The notes beneath the pieces are model-generated. The model did not search any database. It was given only the letters and a program-made list of their open reading frames with translations, and was not told where the DNA came from. A stretch of 64,000 nt of DNA from Hypomesus transpacificus. Taxonomy: Eukaryota; Chordata; Actinopteri; Osmeriformes; Osmeridae. Of the stretch, positions 11,146 to 63,792 are shown piece by piece (within the stretch, counting starts at the first letter, position 1; each line of letters starts with the position of its first letter). Position numbers and translations under genes: made by a program. The stretch covers positions 2,349,053 through 2,413,052 of the forward strand of contig NC_061064.1 of the NCBI RefSeq assembly GCF_021917145.1, written 5' to 3'.

Positions 11146-12117
11146 TCAGTGTTTACCTGTTGTTAAACTGGGTTCACCTGTCCAGAGAGCACACGTGAGG
11201 TGGTGCAGGAATACAAGTCTGATGGTTTGGTCTCTCAGACCATATATCAGACTGCTCAGGCACCTAGGCAAGGTTACAATGAATATAAAGAAAATATAAC
11301 CAACAACTAACCTTGCAGTTCGATTCAGTGTTCCAAGTCTGTATATATATCCCATTAGTATACCGGAAAGAGAGGTGGAAAGACACAGAAGCAGTTGAAT
11401 CATGTGGAGCAGAACTGTGTTGCGGGCCTTGGTGGTCGAGGCTTTGTCTGAGGAAGCAGATCTGGCTACTGTCGTCACACCAAAGTAGGAGCACAATATT
11501 ACGATACCCACAGATGTAAAAGTGACAGCCGTTAAGGCTTTATCATATTCCTGTGAGACTGTACTGTAGAAAAGTGCGTCCATAGCACAGAATTGCTGCA
11601 TCATCTGTTCAGCAGAAAATGTCTCATAAAGAACCAGAAGAATTGACCGTATGAGCGGGTTGATGCTGGAGAGAGCCCACACCACACCAATAGACACACC
11701 TGTGTTCTTGACGGTGACGATGGCAGAGTGCCTCAGTGGGAAGCACACAGCCACATACCTCTCCAGTGACATCACCGCCAAGTTCAAGGGAGACACAGAA
11801 GTCACAGTGATAGTTATCAAAACTATTATTGCACATGTATAGTGAGTCAGAAACACTGGAGGTAGAGACAAGATCAAGAGCAGTTGACCCATTGCCAACT
11901 GGAAGGTGTCAGCGAAGAGCAGATTATACAGGAGGAGGTATCGAGGGGTCTCTCTAAAGACTGACTTGCTCCTCAGAGTGAACAACATGATGCCATTGAT
12001 GTAGAGGAAGACAATAGATGGAGACACACAGAAAGCTCCATAAAGTCCTTTCACCAGATAAACCTGAAACATATCGGGCATTGTGATGTTGATTTGCTGT
12101 CCTGTTGAATTTGACAT
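11146..12117 (-). CDS. Odorant receptor-like GPCR, copy A (OR131-2-like)
   Basis: Intact intronless seven-helix receptor of 323 residues. Family features seen: NST and NIT glycosylation sites near the N-terminus, TM1 with LYINGIMLF (about 38-46), conserved FRETPRYLLLYNLLFADT before and into TM2, a Cys95-Cys177 pair, MSLERYVAVCFPLRH (about 116-130) at the end of TM3 in place of the DRY motif, RSASSDKASTTKARNTVLLH before TM6, and LIYGLRD (about 290-296) at the end of TM7. It resembles fish genes usually named odorant receptor 131-2-like and is presumably a chemoreceptor in olfactory neurons; the ligand is unknown. An acceptor (TTTCTCTTCAG) sits 13 bases upstream of the ATG, so the 5'UTR is spliced from an exon near 12451-12492. 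It is the most diverged of the three minus-strand copies. Confidence 0.85.
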   Translation of the reverse strand: MSNSTGQQINITMPDMFQVYLVKGLYGAFCVSPSIVFLYINGIMLFTLRSKSVFRETPRYLLLYNLLFADTFQLAMGQLLLILSLPPVFLTHYTCAIIVLITITVTSVSPLNLAVMSLERYVAVCFPLRHSAIVTVKNTGVSIGVVWALSSINPLIRSILLVLYETFSAEQMMQQFCAMDALFYSTVSQEYDKALTAVTFTSVGIVILCSYFGVTTVARSASSDKASTTKARNTVLLHMIQLLLCLSTSLSGILMGYIYRLGTLNRTARLVVGYIFFIFIVTLPRCLSSLIYGLRDQTIRLVFLHHLTCALWTGEPSLTTGKH

Positions 12118-12779: not shown

Positions 12780-14187
12780 CTTCTTCTGACCCAAACCCTA
12801 CTACCCCTAACCCTTGCTGCCCACACCACCTAACTAACCCCTGCTGCCCACACCACCTAACTAACCCCTGCTGCCCACACCACCTAACTAACCCCTGCTG
12901 CCCACACCACCTAACTACCCCCCGGCAACACACACCACCTAACTAACCCCTGCTACACACACCACCTAACTAACCCCTGCTGCCCACACCACCTAACTAC
13001 CCCCCGGCAACACACACCACCTAACTAACCCCTGCTACACACACCACCTAACTAACCCTTGCTGCCCACACCACCTAACTAACCCCCTGCTGCCCAAACC
13101 ACCTAACTAACCCCCTGCTACACACACCACCTAACTAACCCCTGCTACCCACACCACCTAACTAACCTCTGCTACACACCACCTAACTAACCCCTGCTGC
13201 CCACACCACCTAACTAACCCCTGCTACACACCACCTAACTAACCCCTGCTGCCCACACCACCTAACTAACCCCTGCTACACACACCACCTAACTAACCCC
13301 TGCTGCCCACACCACCTAACTAACCCCTTGCTACACACACCACCTAACTGACCCCTGCTACCCACACCACCTAACTAACCCCTGCTACACACCACCTAAC
13401 TAACCCCTGCTGCCCACACCACCTAACTAACCCCTGCTACACACACCACCTAACTAACCCCTGCTGCACACACCACCTAACTAACCCCCTGCTACCCACA
13501 CCACCTAACTAACCCCCTGCTGCACACACCACCTAACTAAGCCCTGCTGCCAACTACACCTAACCAACCCACCCACACCACCTAACTAGCTTGCAATGTT
13601 TGGGACTACCTCGTTGTTATGATCAGTGACCTATGCTCTTTTGTAAAGTTCTCTCTTGGAAGTCGCTTTGGATAAAAGCGTCTGCTAAATGCATAAATGT
13701 AAATGTAACTATCCCCTGCTACCCACACCACCTAACTAACCCCTGCTGCCCACACCACCTAACTAACCCCCTGCTACACACACCACCTAACTAACCCCTG
13801 CTGCCCACACCACCTAACTAACCCCCTGCTACACACACCACCTAACTAACCCCTGCTACCCACACCACCTAACTAACCCCCTGCTACACACACCACCTAA
13901 CAAACCCCCTGCTACACACACCACCTTACTAACCCCCTGCTACACACACCACCTAACAAACCCCCTGCTGAACACACCACCTAACTAACCCCTGCTGCCC
14001 ACACCACCTAACTAACCCCCTGCTACACACACCACCTAACTAACCCCTGCTACACACACCACCTAACTAACCCCTGCTACCCACACCACCTAACTAACCC
14101 CTGCTGCACACACCACCTAACTCACCCCCTGCTACACACACCACCTAACTCACCCCCTGCTACACCTAACTCACCCCCTCTCTGACC
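12780..14187. repeat. 27-bp minisatellite array 1 (interrupted)
   Basis: Dozens of units of 25-28 bp around CACACCACCTAACTAACCCC plus TGCTGCC or TGCTACA variants. The array is split at about 13588-13710 by a retroposon tail. CTAACTAACCCC is telomere-like but irregular. No credible protein is encoded. Confidence 0.95.
13588..13710 (+). mobile_element. Retroposon 3' tail inside minisatellite array 1
   Basis: TTGCAATGTTTGGGACTACC leads to CTTTGGATAAAAGCGTCTGC and an ATAAATGTAAATGTA end. This is the conserved 3' tail of fish LINE/SINE families. An almost identical copy sits at the same place in array 2 (18064-18187), and a diverged copy at about 57030-57135. Confidence 0.8.
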
Positions 14188-15050
14188 AGAGACAGCACAG
14201 ACATAACATGAATCAGTACAGTATGAATCCACCGATTTATTCAAAGAAAATCACAAACAAACTTTTCAAATTTTAATCAAGGAGTAACGCACTTTCTGTC
14301 CTGCTAGTTAGTTAGACGGTTGGAATGATCCGTTGTTATTGATACAATAACGTGTATCCCAAAAGGATGTTGATATTGTTCAAATCAGCAATAAATATCA
14401 AGATCAGGAAGAACATCCAGCAGACAATAGGGAGGAAACAACCTCTAAATGGAACTGAATGATCTACTTAGATGAACTGTTGTGTAAGGATTACAGAAAT
14501 GGTGAAGACTCATGGAAATCAGCACTATAGTGCACAGCGTCTACTTGTGTTCATTTCTCCATGATCAGTTTTTAAAGTCATGGAAATATGTAGTCAATTT
14601 GAGGTAGTGACTGTTAATTGAAGCACAGCATGGATACAAACAGCATGAATACAAACAATTTTTTGTGTGCAGCACATCAAAATGAGTAAGAACTCAAAAG
14701 AGACAATTAAAGCAGATAAGACCCTCCTTTATTATGTTATACATTTGCATGATTTCACAGATATATAAATATGAGCTTCTGATCTTATTATTTATTATGT
14801 ATTTGTTCCACTTTATCCAACTCATGTTTGTCGGACAGCTCGTTCCATTTAGCCATGAGTGTTGAACCAATATCAGATAGTGGTCCCTTGAATATTGTCC
14901 CTTCAACAAACACACAGTAGGCCTATATATGTAAAACAAATCATTTAAATAAGTTGATCTGTCAAATTGTTCCATTGCGATACAAAGTATTTGTATTTAT
15001 TAAGCAGAAAGACCATGATAAATGTAATTTCCATTTCAGTAATGTGGCCC

Positions 15051-16022
15051 TCAGTGTTTATCTGTTGTTAAACTGGGCCCACCTGTCCAGAGAGCACACC
15101 TGAGGTGGTGCAGGAATACAAGTCTGATGGTTTGGTCTCTCAGACCATATATCAGACTGCTCAGGCACCTAGGCAAGGTTACAATGAATATAAAGAATAC
15201 ATAACCAACAATTAACCTTGCAGTTCGATTCAATGTTCCAAGTCTGTATATATATCCCGTTAGTATACCGGAAAGAGAGGTGGAGAGACACAGAAGGAGC
15301 TGAATCATGTGGAGCAGAACTGTGTTGCGGGCCTTGGTGGTCGAGGCTTTGTCTGAGGAAGCAGATCTGGCTACTGTCGTCACACCAAAGTAGGAGCACA
15401 AGATTACGATACCTACAGATGTAAAAGAGACACCAGTGAAGGCTTTATCATATTCCTGTGAGACTGTACTGTAGAAAAGTGCATCCATAGTACAGAATTG
15501 CTGCATCATCTGATCCACAGAAAATGTCTCATACAGAACCAGAAGAATTACACGTATCAACGGGTCGATGCTGGAGAGAGCCCACACCACACCAATAGAC
15601 ACACCTGTGTTCTTGACGGTGACGATGGCAGAGTGCCTCAGTGGGAAGCACACAGCCACATACCTCTCCAGTGACATCACCGCCAGGTTCAAGGGAGACA
15701 CAGAAGTCACAGTGATAGTTATCAAAACTAGTATTGTACATGTATAGTGAGTCAGAAACACTGGAGGTAGAGACAAGATCAAGAGCAGTTGACCCATTGC
15801 CAACTGGAAGGTGTCAGCGAAGAGCAGATTATACAGGAGGAGGTATCGAGGGGTCTCTCTAAAGACTGACTTGCTCCTCAGAGTGAACAACATGATGCCA
15901 TTGATGTAGAGGAAGACAATAGATGGAGACACACAGAAAGCTCCATAAAGTCCTTTCACCAGATAAACCTGAAACATATCGGGCATTGTGATGTTGATTT
16001 GCTGTCCTGTTGAATTTGACAT
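15051..16022 (-). CDS. Odorant receptor-like GPCR, copy B (OR131-2-like)
   Basis: Intact 323-residue intronless receptor with the same architecture as copy A: N-terminal glycosylation sites, Cys95-Cys177, LERY after TM3 and IYGLRD after TM7. It differs from copy A mainly at residues 153, 158, 169, 170, 178, 195, 197 and 199 (TM4 end, second extracellular loop, TM5 start) and at 96, 98, 255, 271, 275, 308, 315 and 321. A TATA-like TATTTAAA at 16426-16433 and a donor AAG|GTGAGA (exon edge 16358) define a 5'UTR exon, and the acceptor is just upstream of the ATG. The gene is probably functional; the ligand is unknown. Confidence 0.85.
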   Translation of the reverse strand: MSNSTGQQINITMPDMFQVYLVKGLYGAFCVSPSIVFLYINGIMLFTLRSKSVFRETPRYLLLYNLLFADTFQLAMGQLLLILSLPPVFLTHYTCTILVLITITVTSVSPLNLAVMSLERYVAVCFPLRHSAIVTVKNTGVSIGVVWALSSIDPLIRVILLVLYETFSVDQMMQQFCTMDALFYSTVSQEYDKAFTGVSFTSVGIVILCSYFGVTTVARSASSDKASTTKARNTVLLHMIQLLLCLSTSLSGILTGYIYRLGTLNRTARLIVGYVFFIFIVTLPRCLSSLIYGLRDQTIRLVFLHHLRCALWTGGPSLTTDKH

Positions 16023-16357
16023 GTTTGAGGTAAATCTGAAGAGAAAAATAGATTATTTATCGTGTTAGAAAACATCAGCACATATTTCTTGCCAACTTGA
16101 CCAAGGCTTATTAAGGCTGACAATACTTTTGTAGAGAAAAGTTATGTTACTTTAAATGCATGATAAATTCTTAAACCATTTCACATTTGGTAAAAATCTT
16201 GTCATTCTCAAATACAGTTTAAGATTAAAAAAGAGACCCATTATAATTACCACATAGATCCTGTTCATCTGTCATCAGCATCACACAACTAAAATGAGGT
16301 AAATAAATAAATTTGTACAAATGTCTCTATAAGACGATCCTAACTGTGGGTTCTCAC

Positions 16358-16628: not shown

Positions 16629-17087
16629 AATTTGAAATTTATTGTTTGGAGGATAACCCCTTGAGATGCAGCATCTCGTTTTCGATGGGGTCTTCAAGAC
16701 ACAAGACAAAGACAAGTACATGCACATTCAAACTCGCTCAAGTTCCCCCCCTCCCAGACCTCACCCACCCCACCGACTCCCTAGTGAATACATATCGTAT
16801 TACTGAGAGGCATATATACACATATACATACATACACATATACATACATATATACATACATATATATACACACATATACACAAACCTTCACCCGTACACA
16901 CGTACAGTATTTATTCATGAAGAAAAAAGAAAGAGAAGTCCAGTCAAACATGAGCAAAACATTTACAGCAACAATTTGCTTGTAAGTGATTATAAAGGGA
17001 TATTTTAAAGGAGTGCAAAGAAGTGATAGATCTAAGAGACCCTGGTAGGCTATTCCAGTCTGAAGGGGCTTTAAATTTAAAGGTACG
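16629..17087 (-). mobile_element. 5'-truncated non-LTR retrotransposon fragment
   Basis: This segment is absent at the matching point of units 1 and 3 and is flanked by a 5-bp duplication CAAGT (16624-16628 and 17088-17092). On the minus strand, frame FKAPSDWNSLPGSLRS followed by LHSFKISLYNHL and a stop matches the typical C-terminus of LINE ORF2 proteins. Downstream there is a TA-rich stretch, a GAGATGC/GCATCTC hairpin, and a tail ending AATAAATTTCAAATT. It is a dead 459-bp 3' fragment that inserted after the unit duplication. Confidence 0.85.
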
Positions 17088-17167
17088 CAAGTCACAATGA
17101 ATTGGTCAAACTGGACCAGCCGAGTACAACTCTTCTTGTCGTACCAAAGCTTCTTCTGACCCAAACT

Positions 17168-18660
17168 CGGCTATGCCTGACCCCTGCTGCCCACACCACC
17201 TAACTAACCCCTGCTGCCCACACCACCTAACTAACCCCTGCTGCCCACACCACCTAACTAACCCCTGCTGCCCACACCACCTAACTACCCCCCGGCAACG
17301 CACACCACCTAACTAACCCCTGCTACACACACCACCTAACTAACCCCTGCTGCCCACACCACCTAACTAACCCCTGCTGCCCACACCACCTAACTAACCC
17401 CTGCTGCCCACACCACCTAACTAACCCCTGCTGCCCACACCACCTAACTACCCCCCGGCAACACACACCACCTAACTAACCCCTGCTACACACACCACCT
17501 AACTAACCCCTGCTGCCCACACCACCTAACTACCCCCCGGCAACACACACCACCTAACTAACCCCTGCTACACACACCACCTAACTAACCCTTGCTGCCC
17601 ACACCACCTAACTAACCCCCTGCTGCCCAAACCACCTAACTAACCTCTGCTACACACCACCTAACTAACCCCTGCTGCCCACACCACCTAACTAACCCCT
17701 GCTACACACCACCTAACTAACCCCTGCTGCCCACACCACCTAACTAACCCCTGCTACACACACCACCTAACTAACCCCTGCTGCCCACACCACCTAACTA
17801 ACCCCTTGCTACACACACCACCTAACTGACCCCTGCTACCCACACCACCTAACTAACCCCTGCTACACACCACCTAACTAACCCCTGCTGCCCACACCAC
17901 CTAACCAACCCCTGCTACACACACCACCTAACTAACCCCTGCTGCACACACCACCTAACTAACCCCCTGCTACCCACACCACCTAACTAACCCCCTGCTG
18001 CACACACCACCTAACTAACCCCTGCTGCCAACTACACCTAACCAACCCACCCACACCACCTAACTAGCTTGCAATGTTTGGGACTACCTCGTTGTTATGA
18101 TCAGTGACCTATGCTCTTTTGTAAAGTTCTCTCTTGGAAGTCGCTTTGGATAAAAGCGTCTGCTAAATGCATAAATGTAAATGTAACTATCCCCTGCTAC
18201 CCACACCACCTAACTAACCCCTGCTGCCCACACCACCTAACTAACCCCCTGCTACACACACCACCTAACTAACCCCTGCTGCCCACACCACCTAACTAAC
18301 CCCCTGCTACACACACCACCTAACTAACCCCTGCTACCCACACCACCTAACTAACCCCCTGCTACACACACCACCTAACAAACCCCCTGCTACACACACC
18401 ACCTTACTAACCCCCTGCTACACACACCACCTAACAAACCCCCTGCTGAACACACCACCTAACTAACCCCTGCTGCCCACACCACCTAACTAACCCCCTG
18501 CTACACACACCACCTAACTAACCCCTGCTACACACACCACCTAACTAACCCCTGCTACCCACACCACCTAACTAACCCCTGCTGCACACACCACCTAACT
18601 CACCCCCTGCTACACACACCACCTAACTCACCCCCTGCTACACCTAACTCACCCCCTCTC
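17168..18660. repeat. 27-bp minisatellite array 2 (interrupted)
   Basis: Same unit as array 1 (CACCACCTAACTAACCCC core) and the same retroposon tail at 18064-18187. The second half matches array 1 almost unit for unit, which shows that arrays 1 and 2 are copies of one interrupted array. Confidence 0.95.
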
Positions 18661-19528
18661 TGACCAGAGACAGCACAGACATAACATGAATCAGTACAGT
18701 ATGAATCCACCGATTTATTCAAAGAAAATCACAAACAAACTTTTCAAATTTTAATCAAGGAGTAACGCACTTTCTGTCCTGCTAGTTAGTTAGACGGTTG
18801 GAATGATCCGTTGTTATTGATACAATAACGTGTATCCCAAAAGGATGTTGATATTGTTCAAATCAGCAATAAATATCAAGATCAGGAAGAACATCCAGCA
18901 GACAATAGGGAGGAAACAACCTCTAAATGGAACTGAATGATCTACTTAGATGAACTGTTGTGTAAGGATTACAGAAATGGTGAAGACTCATGGAAATCAG
19001 CACTATAGTGCACAGCGTCTACTTGTGTTCATTTCTCCATGATCAGTTTTTAAAGTCATGGAAATATGTAGTCAATTTGAGGTAGTGACTGTTAATTGAA
19101 GCACAGCATGGATACAAACAGCATGAATACAAACAATTTTTTGTGTGCAGCACATCAAAATGAGTAAGAACTCAAAAGAGACAATTAAAGCAGATAAGAC
19201 CCTCCTTTATTATGTTATACATTTGCATGATTTCACAGATATATAAATATGAGCTTCTGATCTTATTATTTATTATGTATTTGTTCCACTTTATCCAACT
19301 CATGTTTGTCGGACAGCTCGTTCCATTTAGCCATGAGTGTTGAACCAATATCAGATAGTGGTCCCTTGAATATTGTCCCTTCAACAAACACACAGTAGGC
19401 CTATATATGTAAAACAAATCATTTAAATAAGTTGATCTGTCAAATTGTTCCATTGCGATACAAAGTATTTGTATTTATTAAGCAGAAAGACCATGATAAA
19501 TGTCATTTCCATTTCAGTAATGTGGCCC

Positions 19529-20500
19529 TCAGTGTTTATCTGTTGTTAAACTGGGCCCACCTGTCCAGAGAGCACACCTGAGGTGGTGCAGGAATACAAG
19601 TCTGATGGTTTGGTCTCTCAGACCATATATCAGACTGCTCAGGCACCTAGGCAAGGTTACAATGAATATAAAGAATACATAACCAACAATTAACCTTGCA
19701 GTTCGATTCAATGTTCCAAGTCTGTATATATATCCCGTTAGTATACCGGAAAGAGAGGTGGAGAGACACAGAAGGAGCTGAATCATGTGGAGCAGAACTG
19801 TGTTGCGGGCCTTGGTGGTCGAGGCTTTGTCTGAGGAAGCAGATCTGGCTACTGTCGTCACACCAAAGTAGGAGCACAATATTACGATACCCACAGATGT
19901 AAAAGTGACAGCCGTTAAGGCTTTATCATATTCCTGTGAGACTGTACTGTAGAAAAGTGCGTCCATAGCACAGAATTGCTGCATCATCTGTTCAGCAGAA
20001 AATGTCTCATAAAGAACCAGAAGAATTGACCATATGAGCGGGTTGATGCTGGAGAGAGCCCACACCACACCAATAGACACACCTGTGTTCTTGACGGTGA
20101 CGATGGCAGAGTGCCTCAGTGGGAAGCACACAGCCACATACCTCTCCAGTGACATCACCGCCAGGTTCAAGGGAGACACAGAAGTCACAGTGATAGTTAT
20201 CAAAACTAGTATTGTACATGTATAGTGAGTCAGAAACACTGGAGGTAGAGACAAGATCAAGAGCAGTTGACCCATTGCCAACTGGAAGGTGTCAGCGAAG
20301 AGCAGATTATACAGGAGGAGGTATCGAGGGGTCTCTCTAAAGACTGACTTGCTCCTCAGAGTGAACAACATGATGCCATTGATGTAGAGGAAGACAATAG
20401 ATGGAGACACACAGAAAGCTCCATAAAGTCCTTTCACCAGATAAACCTGAAACATATCGGGCATTGTGATGTTGATTTGCTGTCCTGTTGAATTTGACAT
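19529..20500 (-). CDS. Odorant receptor-like GPCR, copy C (mosaic of A and B)
   Basis: Intact 323-residue intronless receptor with the full set of family motifs (LERY after TM3, Cys95-Cys177, IYGLRD). Residues 96, 98, 255, 271, 275, 308, 315 and 321 are B-like, whereas 153, 158, 169, 170, 178, 195, 197 and 199 are A-like. The middle therefore appears to have been replaced by A-type sequence. Trp157 (Arg in A and B) is private. The upstream 5'UTR exon has lost its GT donor (AT at 20836-20835), so the mRNA may retain the leader intron or use another donor. The reading frame itself is undamaged, so it is annotated as a gene with uncertain expression. Confidence 0.83.
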   Translation of the reverse strand: MSNSTGQQINITMPDMFQVYLVKGLYGAFCVSPSIVFLYINGIMLFTLRSKSVFRETPRYLLLYNLLFADTFQLAMGQLLLILSLPPVFLTHYTCTILVLITITVTSVSPLNLAVMSLERYVAVCFPLRHSAIVTVKNTGVSIGVVWALSSINPLIWSILLVLYETFSAEQMMQQFCAMDALFYSTVSQEYDKALTAVTFTSVGIVILCSYFGVTTVARSASSDKASTTKARNTVLLHMIQLLLCLSTSLSGILTGYIYRLGTLNRTARLIVGYVFFIFIVTLPRCLSSLIYGLRDQTIRLVFLHHLRCALWTGGPSLTTDKH

Positions 20501-20836
20501 GTTTGAGGTAAATCTGAAGAGAAAAATAGATTATTTATCGTGTTAGAAAACATCAGCACATATTCCTTGCCAAATTGACCAAGGCTTATTAGGGCTGACA
20601 ATACTATTGTTTTAGAGAAACGTTCTGTTACTTTAAATGCATGATACATACCACTTCACATTTGGTAAAAATAATTCTTTTCATTCTCAAATACAGTTTA
20701 AGATTAAAAAAGAGACCCATTATAATTACCACATAGATCCTGTTCATCTGTCATCAGCATCACACAACTAAAATGAGGTAAATAAATAAATTCGTACAAA
20801 TGTCTCTATAAGACGATCCTAACTGTGGGTTTTCAT

Positions 20837-20912
20837 CTTGGTGTCTGATGAACAATCATTCAACTTGATTACCTGAATGTCTTCACTTCACATTATTACA
20901 GGTGTTTAAATA
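20837..20912 (-). promoter_or_regulatory. Core promoter and 5'UTR exon of receptor copy C (donor mutated)
   Basis: TATTTAAA at 20905-20912 is conserved, but the exon end reads AAG|ATGAAA where A and B have AAG|GTAAGA and AAG|GTGAGA. The G at donor position 1 has become A. The change also creates an upstream ATG in any unspliced leader. Confidence 0.6.
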
Positions 20913-21189
20913 CCCTGACCTCCAGTGAGTACAACCATGACTTGTTGCGATGATGTCAATATTAACAAGCAATGAATCCCTAATGAAGTTCTAGGATGAA
21001 GTCACATTTGAATGTTTAATAATGAGGAGACAGGGGAGTGTATCAGTCTTCTTGAAAAACACCCCAAGCAGCTGGTCCCAGTGCTGTGTGTCCCATTGGT
21101 TTCAAGTCACAATGAACTGGTCAAACTGGACCAGCCAAGTGCAACTCTTCTTGTGGTACCAAACCTTCTTCTGACCCAAACCCTACTAC

Positions 21190-21920
21190 CCCTAACCCCT
21201 GCTGCCCACACCACCTAACTAACCACTTGCTACACACACCACCTAACTAACCCCCTGCTGCCCACACCACCTAACTAACCCCCTGCCACACACACCACCT
21301 AACTAACCCCTGCTACACACACCACCTAACTACCCCCCGGCTACACACACCACCTAACTAACCCCTTGCTGCCCACACCACCTAACTAACCCCCTGCTAA
21401 ACACACCACCTAACTAACCCCCTGCTACACACACCACCTAACTAACCCCTGCTACACACACCACCTAACTAACCCCTGCTACACACACCACCTAACTAAC
21501 CCCTTGCTGCCCACACCACCTAACTAACCCCCTGCTACACACACCACCTAACTAACCCCCTGCTACACACACCACCTAACTAACCCCTGCTGCCCACACC
21601 ACCTAACTAACCCCCTGCTACACACACCACCTAACTAACCCCTGCTACACACACCACCTAACTAACCCCTTGCTGCCCACACCACCTAACTAACCCCCTG
21701 CTACACACACCACCTAACTAACCCCCTGCTACACACACCACCTAACTAACCCCTGCTGCCCACACCACTTAACTAACCCCCTGATACACACACCACCTAA
21801 GTAACCCCCTGCTACACACACCACCTAACTAACCCCCTGCTACACACACCACCTAACTAACCCTCTGCTGCCCACACCACCTAACTAACCCCTGCTGCCC
21901 ACACAACCTAACTAACCAGA
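21190..21920. repeat. 27-bp minisatellite array 3
   Basis: Same unit family as arrays 1 and 2 but shorter and without the internal retroposon tail. It ends the three-unit cluster. Confidence 0.93.
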
Positions 21921-22193: not shown

Positions 22194-22400
22194 CTCTAAT
22201 CCACAGTCAACCATTGACCTGATTCAGCCTATGGTTTGTTACACATGTCCATATGGTGAAGTTGTCCAGGGAAAGTTTGGAAAAGGGCAGGAACTTGAAA
22301 AAAATACTTGACAGGTGATTGGATGAACCATCTCGTCTATCACTGTCTGTTACGGGCAAACTTCAACCACATCCACAACTGCCAGTAGTTCCTCAGGAGA

Positions 22401-22550
22401 TTCTGATTGGTCCGAACCACTGTGGTTTGATTCTTATTGGTCCGAACCACTGTGGTTTGATTCTGATTGGTCCGAACCACTGTGGTTTGATTCTGATTGG
22501 TCCGAACCACTGTGGTTTGATTCTGATTGGTCCGAACCACTGTGGTTTGA
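22401..22550. repeat. Five perfect-length 30-bp tandem repeats with a palindrome
   Basis: Each unit reads TTCTGATTGG then TCCGAACCAC then TGTGGTTTGA. It contains the palindrome AACCACTGTGGTT and an ATTGG (inverted CCAAT). Only one substitution (T for G in unit 2) is visible among the five units. It lies about 0.9 kb upstream of the promoter of receptor copy D. Confidence 0.95.
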
Positions 22551-23519: not shown

Positions 23520-23667
23520 GTAAAGCTGATCAGGGCCTTTACAGTCAATGGCAACATCCCAAAATTTCTTGTTTGTGTTTGCAGTGCATTTGTTGGTTGT
23601 GTCTAACAACATAACATCTAACAATTTCAATATGTTTCTCTTTCTTTCTTTCAGATGCAGCTGTGAC

Positions 23668-24630
23668 ATGTCAAACGTAACCCAACCCAAGGACAACTTT
23701 ACCCTTGCTTACAGAACGAGTATCCTCTTTGGAACGCTTTCTGTCACACCATTGTTAATCTTTCTGTATATCAACGGGGTCATATTATTCATTTTAAGAA
23801 ACAAGCCAGTCTTTAGAGAGACACCTCGATACGTCTTGTTGTATAATCTTCTTTTTGCCGACACCTTCCAGTTAGTAGTGGGACAATTTCTGTACATACT
23901 GGCCACAGTCCGCGTGTATATGATTCGCTACCTCTGTGTCATAACTGTCATATTGGCCATGCTTACTACTGAAATCTCCCCTTACAACCTGGCGATGATG
24001 TCACTGGAGAGGTATGTGGCTGTGTGCTTCCCACTGAGGCACTCTGCCATCGTCACCATCAAGAACACAGGTGTGTCTATTGCTGTGGTGTGGGCCATCT
24101 GCGGCATAAACACCATCATCCGAATATTTATGTTGATCCTCCTGGAGTCTTTGCCTCTAGATCAGTACATGCTGGATTTCTGTGCTAAAGAAACACTTTT
24201 CGAACAGAAACTGTTTTATGATTTTGATAAAGCCTTCACTGGTGTCACTTTTGTACTTGTGGGAATTGTAATCTTGTGCTCCTATTTTGGTGTGATGATA
24301 GCAGCCAGATCTGCTTCCTCAGACAAAGCCTCGACCAGCAAGGCTAAAAAAACAGTTGTGCTGCACATGATTCAGCTGCTTCTCATTCTGTCCTCCACCC
24401 TCGTCTCTCCTATTCTAACAGCCTTCTATGGAAAAGTGGACAGAATCACACTTATAACTATTTATTATATTCTGTTTTTGTGCCTTGTGAACTTGCCCAG
24501 GTGTCTGAGTGGGCTGATATATGGCCTGAGAGACCAAACCATCAGACCCTTTCTTCTGTACCACCTCAGTTTTGGTCTCAGACGTCCCAAACTTGGACAA
24601 ACATCCACTGTGCCTTCTAACAAACGTTAA
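23668..24630 (+). CDS. Odorant receptor-like GPCR, copy D (OR131-2-like)
   Basis: Single-exon receptor of 320 residues, related to but clearly diverged from the three minus-strand copies. Shared motifs: NVT and NFT glycosylation sites near the N-terminus, LYINGVILF in TM1, FRETPRYVLLYNLLFADTFQ before TM2, MSLERYVAVCFPLRH after TM3, CSYFGVM in TM5, ARSASSDKAST in the third inner loop and LIYGLRD after TM7. I chose the ATG at 23668 rather than the in-frame ATG at 23548. A strong splice acceptor lies between them, and the chosen start aligns with copies A-C. The opposite orientation suggests an older duplication or inversion. Confidence 0.85.
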   Translation: MSNVTQPKDNFTLAYRTSILFGTLSVTPLLIFLYINGVILFILRNKPVFRETPRYVLLYNLLFADTFQLVVGQFLYILATVRVYMIRYLCVITVILAMLTTEISPYNLAMMSLERYVAVCFPLRHSAIVTIKNTGVSIAVVWAICGINTIIRIFMLILLESLPLDQYMLDFCAKETLFEQKLFYDFDKAFTGVTFVLVGIVILCSYFGVMIAARSASSDKASTSKAKKTVVLHMIQLLLILSSTLVSPILTAFYGKVDRITLITIYYILFLCLVNLPRCLSGLIYGLRDQTIRPFLLYHLSFGLRRPKLGQTSTVPSNKR

Positions 24631-60215: not shown

Positions 60216-63200
60216 GTCCCTAACTGACCTGTCTGGTTTTAGTTGACATGGAGTGGGGTGTCTCCCCGCCCGAACAAGTTCAACGATGAGGACTTATGGA
60301 AGGTGAGTAAGTGCTTCCTAAACCAGCGACACCTCAGACTCCACTTCCACTTGTAATCTCACATTTACAGGTGACATTTACTCTAAGCTTCACCAATTAG
60401 CTTCCATGTCCTGTGTCCCAGGAGGAGGATGTGAACTCTGACCAGAGCCTGAAGGAGTTTGAAGGAGCCACCCTGCGCTACGCCTCCATCAACCTCAGGT
60501 GGGATGTGAGGACGTCTCTAGGTGAGGTCTTACCAGGTAGTCTTGGTCTGTTCACACGTCTCATCCTGTCTCTTCACTGTTGTCCCCAGCTGCTCCCAGT
60601 CTGAGGGCAGAGAGAAGCTGGATTCTCTCATCAATGACCCAGACACCAAGGTATGTACTCATGCATGTGGGTGTTTTTATAGTTTGACCTTGTGACCTCC
60701 ACAGGCATTTCACCAAGTCTCTCTCTACTTCTGCCTCTCTCTCCCCCCTCTCCCCCTCCCTCCCTCCCTCCCTCCCTCCCTCCCTCCCTCCCTCCCTCCC
60801 TCCCTCCCTCCCTCCCTCCCTCCCTCCCTCCCTCCCTCCCTCCCTCCCTCCCTCCACCTCTCCTCCTCTCCCTGCCTCCACCTCTCTCCCTGCACCTCTC
60901 CCCCTCCCTCCTCTCCTTCCCTCCTCTCTCCCTCCTCTCTCCCTCCTCTCTCCCCCCTCCTTCCTCTCCCTCTCTCCTCTCCCTCTCTTTCTCTCCCCCT
61001 CCGTCCTCTCTCCCCCTCTCTCCTGTCTCCCCCTTCCTGCCCATCCCTCCTCTCCCTCCCTCCTCTCCCTCTCTCCTCCTCTCTCCCCATCCCTCCTCTC
61101 CCTCCCTCCTCTCCCTCTCTCCTCCTCTCTCCCCTTCCCTCCTCTCTCTCCCCCACCCCCACCCTCCCTCCCCCCCATCAGGTGTTTGCAGTGCGCTCAC
61201 TGGGCTGGGTGGAGATTTCCGAGGAGGAGATGGCCCCAGGAAAGAGCAGCGTCGCCGTGAACAACTGCATCCGCCAGCTGTCCTACCACAAGCACAACCT
61301 GCACGACACAGCTGGGATCTGGGGGGAGGTGAGGGGGCGGAGTCTGAGGTCAGCCAGCCCTCCAGGGGGCGCTGTGGTGTATGATGGCTGGACTGAGGGG
61401 ATGTTTGATGGGGTGTCTTTTCTCCCCCACAGGGCAAAGACATGCTCCTGGTTCTGGAGAACGAGACGCTGAATCTGATTGACCCTTTGGGCCAGACTGT
61501 GCTGCACTCTCAGCCTATCGTCAGCATTCGAGTGTGGGGCGTGGGGCGGGACAATGGCAGGTCAGTATCTAGGCAGATTAGCCAAATCAGGCTTGCTTGT
61601 GCATCTGTTGACTAAAAAGAAACAGGTTATTAGAGTTATTCCTTCAAAGCCCTGCTCTGTTTCCCTTGTATGTTTTGAGTTGATTGATTGATTTGTCATG
61701 CTTGATTTGCTTTCTCTCCGACCCGCTGCCCTCGGCCTATCAGGGACAGGTAGTGTATGATTGACACACCCACCATCTCTCATCCCATGGCCCCATGATG
61801 TGTAGTGACTGTAGTGCTGGTAGTCTCACTGGCAGGCCACACCCCCTGTCTGTACAGGCCACGCCCCTCTGCTGCTGCCTCTCCACTGGCTCGTGTTGTA
61901 GTGTCAGTAGATACATTCACCCATGTCAGATAATGACCACTAACTCTCGAAAGCTCCCAACGTTTTTGTGACTGTAGAACCGTCGACCTTGCTTTCATCC
62001 CTAAAGGCCATCCGTGTCATGTCTCATTGTCAGTGAGAGAGTGTGAGAGAGTGTGAGAGAGTGTGAGAGAGTGTGAGAGAGTGTGAGAGAGTGTGAGAGA
62101 GTGTGAGAGAGTGTGAGAAAGTGTGAGAGTGTGAGAGAGTGAGAGAGAGTGTGAGAGAGTGAGAGAGAGTGAGAGAGAGAGTGAGAAAGAGAGTGAGAGA
62201 GAGAGAGAGTGAGAGAGTGAGAGAATGGGTGAGAGGAAGTGAGAAGGAGTGAAAGAAAGTGAGAGAGTGAGAGAGAGAGAGCTGCTTGACTGACATCAGT
62301 TCTGGTCTGTATTCCTTCCAGGGACTTTGCCTATGTGGCCAGAGACAAACTGAGCCATGTGCTGAAGTGTCACGTGTTCCGGTGTGACACGCCGGCTAAG
62401 AACATAGCCACCAGTATGCATGACATCTGCTCCAAGGTAAGGACAGAAATCTTTCATATGGAGTTCAATGATTTACATTAGGCCACAGATATTCTTCCTG
62501 GTTGAGAGGGGCTGATTCAACCCACCAAGCTGATCCTGAATGTGTTGTAGGGAGTCAGATGGCTGAGCGGTGAGGGAGTCGGGCTAGTAATCAGAAGGTT
62601 GCCGGATCGATTCCCGATTCCGCCGTGCCACATGTTGTGTCCTTGGGCAAGGCACTTCACCCTACTTGCCCCCTACAGGGGGAATGTCCCTGTACTTACT
62701 GTAAGTCGCTCTGGATAAGAGCGTCTACTATATGTTGTTGTTTGCGTTCCTCTTCAGATCATGGCCCAGAGGAAGACGTCTAAGACCTCTGTGAACAAAC
62801 TCAACATGGATCCTACCAGACTAGCTGACATTCCTTTCCAGGGTAAGAACCAGTGACCCCCTGACCTCACCCTGAACCCCCAAGCTCCTGCATCTTGACC
62901 CCTGACCTCACCCTGAACCCCCAAGCTCCTGCATCTTGACCTCTGACCTCACCCTGAACCCCCCAAGCTCCTGCATCTTGACCCCTGACCTCACCCTGAA
63001 CCCCCCAAGCTCCTGCATCTTGACCCCTGACCTCACCCTGAACCCCCCAAGCTCCTGCATTTTGACCTCTGACCTCACCCTGAACCCCCCAAGCTCCTGC
63101 ATCTTGACCCCTGACCTCACCCTGAACCCCCCAAGCTCTTGCATCTTGACCTCTGACCTCACCCTGAACCCCCCAAGCTCCTGCATCTTGACCCCTGACC

Positions 63201-63792
63201 TCACCCTGAACCCCCCAAGCTCCTGCATTTTGACCTCTGACCTCACCCTGAACCCCCCAAGCTCCTGCATCTTGACCCCTGACCTCACCCTGAACCCCCA
63301 AGCTCCTGCATCTTGACCTCTGACCTCACCCTGAACCCCCCAAGCTCCTGCATCTTGACCCCTGACCTCACCCTGAACCCCCAAGCTCCTGCATCTTGAC
63401 CTCTGACCTCACCCTGAACCCCCCAAGCTCCTGCATCTTGACCCCTGACCTCACCCTGAACCCCCCAAGCTCCTGCATCTTGACCTCTGACCTCACCCTG
63501 AACCCCCAAGCTCCTGCATCTTGACCCCTGACCTCACCCTGAACCCCCAAGCTCCTGCATCTTGACCTCTGACCTCACCCTGAACCCCCAAGCTCCTGCA
63601 TCTTGACCCCTGACCTCACCCTGAACCCCCAAGCTCCTGCATCTGAAACCAAACTAATCTTTCCTCCTCAATCTCATCTCCACCCTTCCTCATCTCTCCT
63701 CTAAACGACAGAATTCCCAGCGCCAAAAAACGAGCTGGTCCAGCGTTTCCAGGTGTCTTACCTGGGTAACGTTCCTGTAGCCAAACCTGCAG
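58321..63792 (+). CDS. apbb1: Fe65 family APP-binding adaptor (apbb1-like), 3' end outside window
   Basis: Adaptor that binds the APP cytoplasmic tail and nuclear partners. Exons: 58321-59077, 59357-59562, 60243-60302, 60422-60498, 60590-60650, 61182-61328, 61433-61560, optional microexon 61744-61749, 62322-62436, 62758-62842, 63712-63792. About 572 codons are visible. An acidic, Ser-rich N-terminus has [12 protein letters not shown] and [14 protein letters not shown]. The WW domain is at about 267-296 ([20 protein letters not shown], then TTQWEPP). PTB1 runs from about 388 ([20 protein letters not shown]) to CSKIMAQRK. PTB2 begins [20 protein letters not shown] and continues past the right edge. 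The N-terminal motif and the PTB2 start favour APBB1; parts of PTB1 ([27 protein letters not shown]) resemble APBB2, so the paralogue call is not final. Confidence 0.88.
59570..59940. repeat. GGCCTGGAGGGGA minisatellite (Fe65 gene intron)
   Basis: About 370 bp of GGCCTGGAGGGGAGG/GGCAGGCCTGGAGGAGA units, beginning just inside the intron after exon 59357-59562. It is very G-rich on the plus strand. Gly/Arg- and Pro/Ser-rich frames across it are artefacts. Confidence 0.95.
60142..60210. repeat. (TA)n microsatellite
   Basis: About 68 bp of TA in the Fe65 gene intron, flanked by CACA. Confidence 0.97.
60718..61178. repeat. (CTCC)n/CTCTCCCT polypyrimidine tract
   Basis: About 460 bp of pyrimidines, including about 100 bp of (CCTC)n at 60755-60855, leading directly into the acceptor at 61181. 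It may serve as an extreme polypyrimidine tract. Confidence 0.96.
61744..61749 (+). other. apbb1: Six-nucleotide microexon of the Fe65 gene (GGACAG)
   Basis: CCTATCAG|GGACAG|GTAGTG lies in the intron between exons 61433-61560 and 62322-62436. Inclusion inserts two residues, turning NGRDFAY into NGRDRDFAY without changing frame. Mammalian Fe65 has a 6-nt neuronal microexon at this same point (GRERDFAY versus GRDFAY). Size, phase and position all agree. Confidence 0.8.
62036..62282. repeat. (GTGAGA)n microsatellite
   Basis: About 245 bp of GTGAGAGA units, with GT-AG steps throughout, in the intron before exon 62322-62436. Confidence 0.96.
62550..62735 (+). repeat. tRNA-derived SINE, copy 6 (Fe65 gene intron)
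   Basis: TCAGATGGCTGAGCGGTGAG, CGGATCGATTCCCGATTCCG, CCTTGGGCAAGGCACTTCAC, tail CTCTGGATAAGAGCGTCTAC. It ends about 20 bases before the acceptor of exon 62758-62842. Confidence 0.88.
62855..63643. repeat. 41-42 bp minisatellite (Fe65 gene intron)
   Basis: About 19 units of CTGACCTCACCCTGAACCCC followed by CAAGCTCCTGCATCTTGACC. They alternate between two variants (GACCCCTGACC and GACCTCTGACC), which suggests expansion of a dimeric unit. Confidence 0.96.

Follow-up and report, generated by a model that had tools for sequence, protein, structure and literature searches.

A mosaic receptor gene and probable recurrent gene conversion in a compact tandem array of Hypomesus transpacificus

Introduction

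Published precedents exist, at least in the parts of the literature that we draw on, for receptor mosaics made by conversion, for regional homogenization in which GC3 is raised, and for divergence peaks under conversion. The mosaic OR genes of tandem clusters (Sharon et al. 1999, as cited in PMC1995454) resemble the genes described here in being tandem OR-like paralogues with blockwise likeness to their neighbors and partial homogenization of the coding sequence. In the sections of PMC1852091 used here, the clustered protocadherins of fugu offer a second likeness: one part of the gene is near-identical, silent sites included, and has raised GC3, while another part is diverse. The same source indicates that repeated conversion tends to raise GC3. 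Red/green opsins (PMC3924837) and GOT1 paralogues (PMC3728101) are described in the relevant portions of those papers as carrying a narrow island of high divergence flanked by low divergence, which our array also shows, and in GOT1 the islands themselves were later exchanged (PMC3728101). Among fish chemosensory paralogues, GENECONV-type evidence like ours is given in extracts of work on channel catfish OlfC subfamily 9 (PMC6588630) and miiuy croaker T1R2 (PMC4763219), each from another receptor family.

Here we analyze a small receptor array within a 64,000-nucleotide stretch of the Hypomesus transpacificus genome, hereafter the window. Among the open-licence papers listed in our searches on fish odorant-receptor gene conversion, none is on this array, and no paper was found for the receptor name 131-2.

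Results

Three of the array's receptor genes lie on the reverse strand, each an intact ORF of 323 amino acids: copy A (11146..12117), copy B (15051..16022), and the mosaic copy C (19529..20500), a class A (7tm_1) receptor. A paralogue, D (23548..24630), is inverted relative to these on the forward strand, and is 58% identical to C in amino acid sequence. All four proteins score above the curated Pfam 7tm_1 cut-off (64.5-67.2 bits vs 30.5), with an E of 2e-18 for PF00001 in C. For the olfactory receptor family 7tm_4 (PF13853, cut-off 27), C scores 27.3 bits, A 26.9, and B 26.0, and D is absent at E 0.01. The best solved-structure matches to C are OR51E2 (E 5e-9), consOR1, and another olfactory receptor. 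The ORF of D probably starts at M41 (23668), just downstream of a splice-acceptor-like CTTTCTTTCAG, and in A, B, and C an acceptor-like CTCTTCAG that precedes the ATG by 16 bases may also be a splice site.

Membership of teleost OR family H, or group eta, is decided by clustering in a tree with the zebrafish OR130-137 genes, and our guess is that A-D belong to this group. In the portion of PMC1325023 that treats family H, MAYDRYVAIC is the sole OR motif kept; the corresponding motif in the array genes is SLERYVAVC. A tblastn search found no relatives of A-D within the window beyond these four genes. Relatives were also sought in two collections without fish, where, as expected, none of the 19 pattern matches in viral_contigs and none of the 52 in genome_contigs was confirmed. 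Neighboring ORFs in the window have Pfam matches to PP2C, EF-hand, UCH, kinase, and WW, which together with the general appearance of the genes point to a teleost. One ORF, 62908-63384, consists of a repeated peptide unit, GFRVRS-VKMQELG, and is likely a minisatellite read as an ORF.

An earlier note on this DNA had proposed that copy C is a mosaic of A and B, and the block structure of the variable sites together with permutation tests show that the mosaic is real. The 17 variable residues that it listed are all present: C matches B at 96, 98, 255, 271, 275, 308, 315, and 321, matches A at 153, 158, 169, 170, 178, 195, 197, and 199, and has a private residue at 157. At the DNA level the gene has 34 variable sites among the three copies, 33 of them informative. 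Read from the 5' end of the gene, these run as 3 sites where C matches B (codons 96, 98, and 113), 18 where it matches A, with the single private site inside this run, and 12 where it again matches B (codons 241-321). The A-like sites form one block, codons 153-207, at 19880..20044 on the reverse strand, within which C matches A at 18/18 informative sites. The corresponding segments are 11497..11661 in A, which differs from C at 1/165 positions, and 15402..15566 in B, the outlying form, at 18/165 from A and 19/165 from C (both on the reverse strand). The C-private base at 20032 changes CGG to TGG, giving R157W. The closest B-like sites are 19778 and 20164, so that the tract length of 166-384 bp given previously is right to within one base, the exact minimum being 165 bp and the maximum 385 bp.

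The probability that 18 of 33 informative sites form one unbroken block is 1.5e-8, and a net run of 18 was reached in 0/200,000 permutations. The GENECONV-type check that the note had called for was run, and the longest runs were matched by 1/50,000 shuffles for A-C and by 1/50,000 for B-C. The switch of partner within the gene is thus beyond chance, and it involves silent sites as well: of the 18 A-B differences in the tract, 8 are silent, and A has the same base as C at each of the 18. These site tests demonstrate a switch of partner without saying which sequence moved. Outside the tract, the three sites that set A against B and C at 20164, 20209, and 20215 fall within 52 bp, the 5' half of the gene being identical apart from them. 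They are perhaps another small patch, and these C=B sites at codons 96-113 (52 bp) fit no simple history.

We cut the gene at its switch points into S1 (codons 1-95), S2 (96-113), S3 (114-152), S4 (153-207, the tract), S5 (208-240), and S6 (241-323). Silent divergence between A and B is 0 in S1, S3, and S5, 0.067 in S2, 0.252 in S4, and 0.101 in S6. Between A and C it is 0 in S1, S3, S4, and S5 and the same as A-B in S2 and S6, and between B and C it is 0.239 in S4 and 0 in every other segment. In S4, B therefore stands apart from both A and C, and the 165-bp segment has two forms, one in A and C and the other in B. The forms differ by a dS of 0.25 (0.252) and a dN of 0.083, which is too many differences for new mutations in an otherwise near-identical gene.

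In the A-B comparison S4 stands out as a narrow, highly divergent island between stretches of low divergence: 18/165 in the tract, vs 0/101 and 0/119 directly beside it, and A-C is at 1/165 in the tract. Had C alone switched partner, A-B divergence should be equal inside and outside the tract. We calculated the same tail probabilities for six yardsticks of A-B constancy. Set against the rest of the gene (15/807), A-B is not constant across the boundary (Fisher p 6e-7), and A-C, at 1/165 vs 15/807, is compatible with constancy (p 0.50), a pattern that an import into B or a remnant left in B would produce as well. With the 3' flank as yardstick (37/250), the A-B tract shows no difference (p 0.30), and the expected equality holds. 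The choice of yardstick decides the outcome, since homogenization has also reached the rest of the gene.

Both ends of the tract lie in stretches that are identical in A, B, and C, which we call anchors. S3 spans the end of TM3 to TM4 and S5 the end of TM5 to the start of TM6; both were delimited by A/B/C identity and then compared with D, which was placed by codon alignment. S3 occupies 20045..20161 in C, 11662-11778 in A, and 15567-15683 in B (all reverse strand), with 93% nucleotide identity to its counterpart in D, 23992-24108 (+). S5 occupies 19781..19879 in C, 11398-11496 in A, and 15303-15401 in B, with 88% identity to D at 24274-24372 (+). The D-A nucleotide identities of 0.93 in S3 and 0.88 in S5 compare with 0.50-0.65 in other segments, and D-A silent divergence is 0.07 in S3 and 0.16 in S5, compared with 0.61-1.76. 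At degenerate residues shared by A and D, the same codon is used at 51/56 in S3 and S5 and at 69/121 elsewhere (p 2.4e-6). Protein conservation is unlikely to be the sole cause of this identity, given that a control window at codons 46-75 has 83% amino acid identity yet the same codons at just 15/25, compared with 28/28 at codons 116-145. Codon sharing with D also occurs outside the anchors, in S4 windows of few shared residues (10/10 and 12/15), and the run statistic for codon sharing, reached in 12/20,000 shuffles, was picked after seeing the data. In a descriptive comparison, GC3 in A, B, and C is 0.72 in S3 and 0.64 in S5, with 0.39-0.54 in other segments; the D windows over S5 have GC3 of 0.37-0.50 and hence are not GC3-rich. 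A DNA-level constraint of another kind could conceivably lie behind the sharing of S3 and S5. Overall, D resembles A, B, and C at the silent sites of two short modules of the intracellular side, despite 58% protein identity. Within the tract, D decides at 12/18 sites, of which 7 favor B and 5 favor A/C, and 6/18 are undecided. It would seem from this 7 to 5 split that A and C have derived states in common.

Outside the gene, the claim that C is flanked by B-like sequence holds on the 3' side, where B and C differ at 1/250 positions of the 3' flank and at 0/250 of the gene 3' end (A-B: 37/250 and 12/250), and fails in the 5' flank. Upstream of C, at 20565..21107, the three copies are about equally distant (4.0-5.2%), with 27 A-B, 22 A-C, and 21 B-C differences over 524 ungapped columns; 13 sites there link C to A and 14 link it to B. 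Further upstream, beyond an insertion present only in B, C matches A at 10 sites and B at 2, and A matches B at 1 (120 columns). That insertion, 461 bp at 16629..17089, is absent from A and C and has CAAGT at either end. From its sequence it is probably a transposable element, and blastn found no second copy in the window.

As the earlier note had it, the B and C units are alike at an offset of 4478, and over 13153-16086 they are near-identical except for the tract. The recently homogenized block is thus 13153..16086 in the B unit, with its partner at 17631..20564 in the C unit. It holds 3 mismatches in 13153-15401 (2,249 bp) and 0 in 15567-16086 (520 bp), and the S4 tract is the sole break between B and C in these 2.9 kb. 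Its right end lies 64 bp before the ATG, and its left end (13153/17631) within a 27/28-bp minisatellite. Between B and C this minisatellite extends over 17180..18643, and its sister arrays are at 12807-14165 and 21192-21917. A separate 30-bp tandem repeat at 22399-22550 has 5.1 copies, 98% alike.

The description of C as recently duplicated does not survive as worded, for only the 2.9-kb block is recent and the upstream parts are older. C did not arise recently as a duplicate of the entire B unit; rather, a 2.9-kb stretch has been homogenized between two older units. A whole-unit tandem duplication from B to C followed by one patch from A is rejected, in this plain form, on the 21/524 B-C differences upstream and the 461-bp insertion private to B. 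The B-C rate of 3/2769 in the recent block differs strongly from that 21/524 (Fisher p 1.5e-14). Similarly, A-C identity over the widest tract, 384/385, exceeds the 502/524 found upstream (Fisher p 6e-5), which indicates that A and C exchanged the tract after their upstream parts had split.

Discussion

Recurrent gene conversion is the best explanation for this array, and it is a documented process, not one of a new kind. The tandem copies A, B, and C, together with the inverted D, would have been reworked by repeated non-allelic conversion, and we consider it very likely that copy C is a mosaic produced in this way, a confidence that does not extend to direction. The earlier interpretation keeps its core, an exchange between paralogues with C as the copy that switches partner; the recipient and the direction that it assigned are not established. 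In the history that we rank first, though only tentatively and with rivals under which the data are nearly as likely, B and C would have been homogenized over about 2.9 kb, after which a tract of 165-385 bp would have passed from A to C. Exchanges would begin or end in the anchors, within the 101 and 119 bp of complete identity among the copies, and the segment between them would be swapped or spared as a cassette. By itself, a transfer from A to C leaves unexplained the A-B jump in the tract, which is as large as that of B-C, and an earlier A-B homogenization of both sides is needed. A transfer from C to A alone predicts that B and C are alike in the tract, where 19/165 differences are observed. 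With D as outgroup the tract sites split 7 to 5, and distances favor no single recipient among the copies of this one genome. The choice of direction would come down to parsimony, and by our reconstruction the main histories each need three events.

It is possible, though on balance we think it unlikely, that B is the odd one, and that its 165-bp segment is a remnant that was never overwritten, A and C being already alike there. B and C would then have traded two pieces, a 3' side of 2.25 kb that stops in S5 and a 5' half of 520 bp that stops in S3, with the B segment spared by its 11% mismatch or by selection for difference. Such a history fits the peak of A-B divergence in the tract, with 0 over the 101 and 119 bp alongside, and the placement of both tract ends in anchors common to all copies. 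It also fits the backbone of C outside the gene, which is not B-like and further out is A-like by 10 to 2, and selection against conversion is described as leaving such a divergence peak in a homogenized background, in the portion of PMC3924837 consulted for it. However, it requires two separate recent B-C exchanges, when the rates of 3/2249 and 0/520 fit one event equally, and the three C=B sites at codons 96-113 need a separate explanation.

An import of the B segment from an unseen paralogue, with A and C retaining an earlier common form, is less probable again. It would account for an A-C tract distance that fits the rest of the gene (p 0.50) when that of A-B does not (p 6e-7), and the split of D at 12 sites, 7 with B and 5 with A/C, is what is expected of two old lineages. 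Yet no donor turned up in the window, where tblastn recovered just the four genes A, B, C, and D, and the import saves nothing, as a recent A-C exchange over S1-S5 is still required because A stands 12/250 (gene 3' end) and 37-38/250 (3' flank) from B and C. The earlier note had allowed for B having changed independently; as point mutations this is unlikely, since D sides with B at 7 of 12 sites and with A/C at 5. A burst of such mutations in B is unlikely on the same split and on the 8 silent differences.

An artefact of assembly or phasing, in which near-identical units were misjoined or haplotypes mixed, strikes us as improbable, and adding chance to it raises the joint figure only slightly. 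Both breakpoints do fall where A, B, and C have the same sequence, and repeats such as the 2,249 bp over which B and C differ by 3 mismatches are hard to assemble. Against this, C has a tract base found in neither A nor B, as well as its own upstream sequence, and the identical stretches beside the tract, at 101 and 119 bp, are shorter than common reads. The private base, a CpG-to-TpG change, could be an allele. Parallel point changes or selection, without any exchange, have next to no chance of having made A and C alike, for although the segment holds positions that line odorant pockets in other receptors, 8 of the 18 A-B differences in the tract are silent, with A and C in agreement at every one of the 18.

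Returning to conversion and what it may have moved, the tract was correctly placed over the end of TM4, ECL2, and the start of TM5. Our numbering sets R120 (ERY motif) at 3.50, W147 at 4.50, and Y211 at 5.58; W147 aligns with the W of consOR1, and a gapped OR51E2 alignment would shift the numbering by one. On these assumptions, the differing residues of the tract are presumably at 4.56, 4.61, two positions in ECL2, 45.51 (the residue after C177), 5.42, 5.44, and 5.46, and the C-private R157W at 4.60. In the relevant passages of PMC10703812, position 4.60 contacts the odorant in OR51E2 and OR52cs, chain-length preference is influenced by 4.57 and 5.47, and TM3-TM6 build the pocket of these receptors. 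The segment thus seems well placed to alter ligand choice, and a shuffling of specificity is plausible from its position. The dN/dS between the A and B tract forms is about 0.33 (0.083/0.252), with no sign of positive selection.

It is conceivable, if somewhat improbable, that the receptor behaves as a two-part machine. Conversion would keep the G-protein-facing S3 and S5 alike in the DNA of all four genes (D being 3.8-12 kb away), S3 and S5 would serve as docking sites, and the ligand-facing TM4-ECL2-TM5 would be swapped between them as a cassette, with selection holding two forms. If a ligand-facing segment is indeed swapped between fixed anchors in the array, tested parts could give rise to new odorant receptors in one step. 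The array is a small, testable case, offering three almost equal receptors whose differences lie mainly in one segment of 55 residues. Trees or dates drawn from whole OR genes in such arrays mix several histories.

Compared with the described systems, as far as the portions cited here report them, each likeness comes with a difference. In contrast to the mosaic OR genes of tandem clusters (PMC1995454), what is exchanged here is TM4-ECL2-TM5, between two anchors that are also common to an inverted paralogue. Homogenization in the fugu protocadherins (PMC1852091) concerns the 3' part of a variable exon across dozens of genes, whereas here it concerns two short internal segments in four genes, with a GC3 comparison that is descriptive. 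Relative to the opsins and GOT1 (PMC3924837, PMC3728101), the island in this array is known from the sequence of a single genome. The excerpts used for catfish OlfC (PMC6588630) and croaker T1R2 (PMC4763219) place no tract on a ligand-facing segment, unlike here. This array is a compact instance that combines a conversion mosaic, regional homogenization, and a divergence peak.
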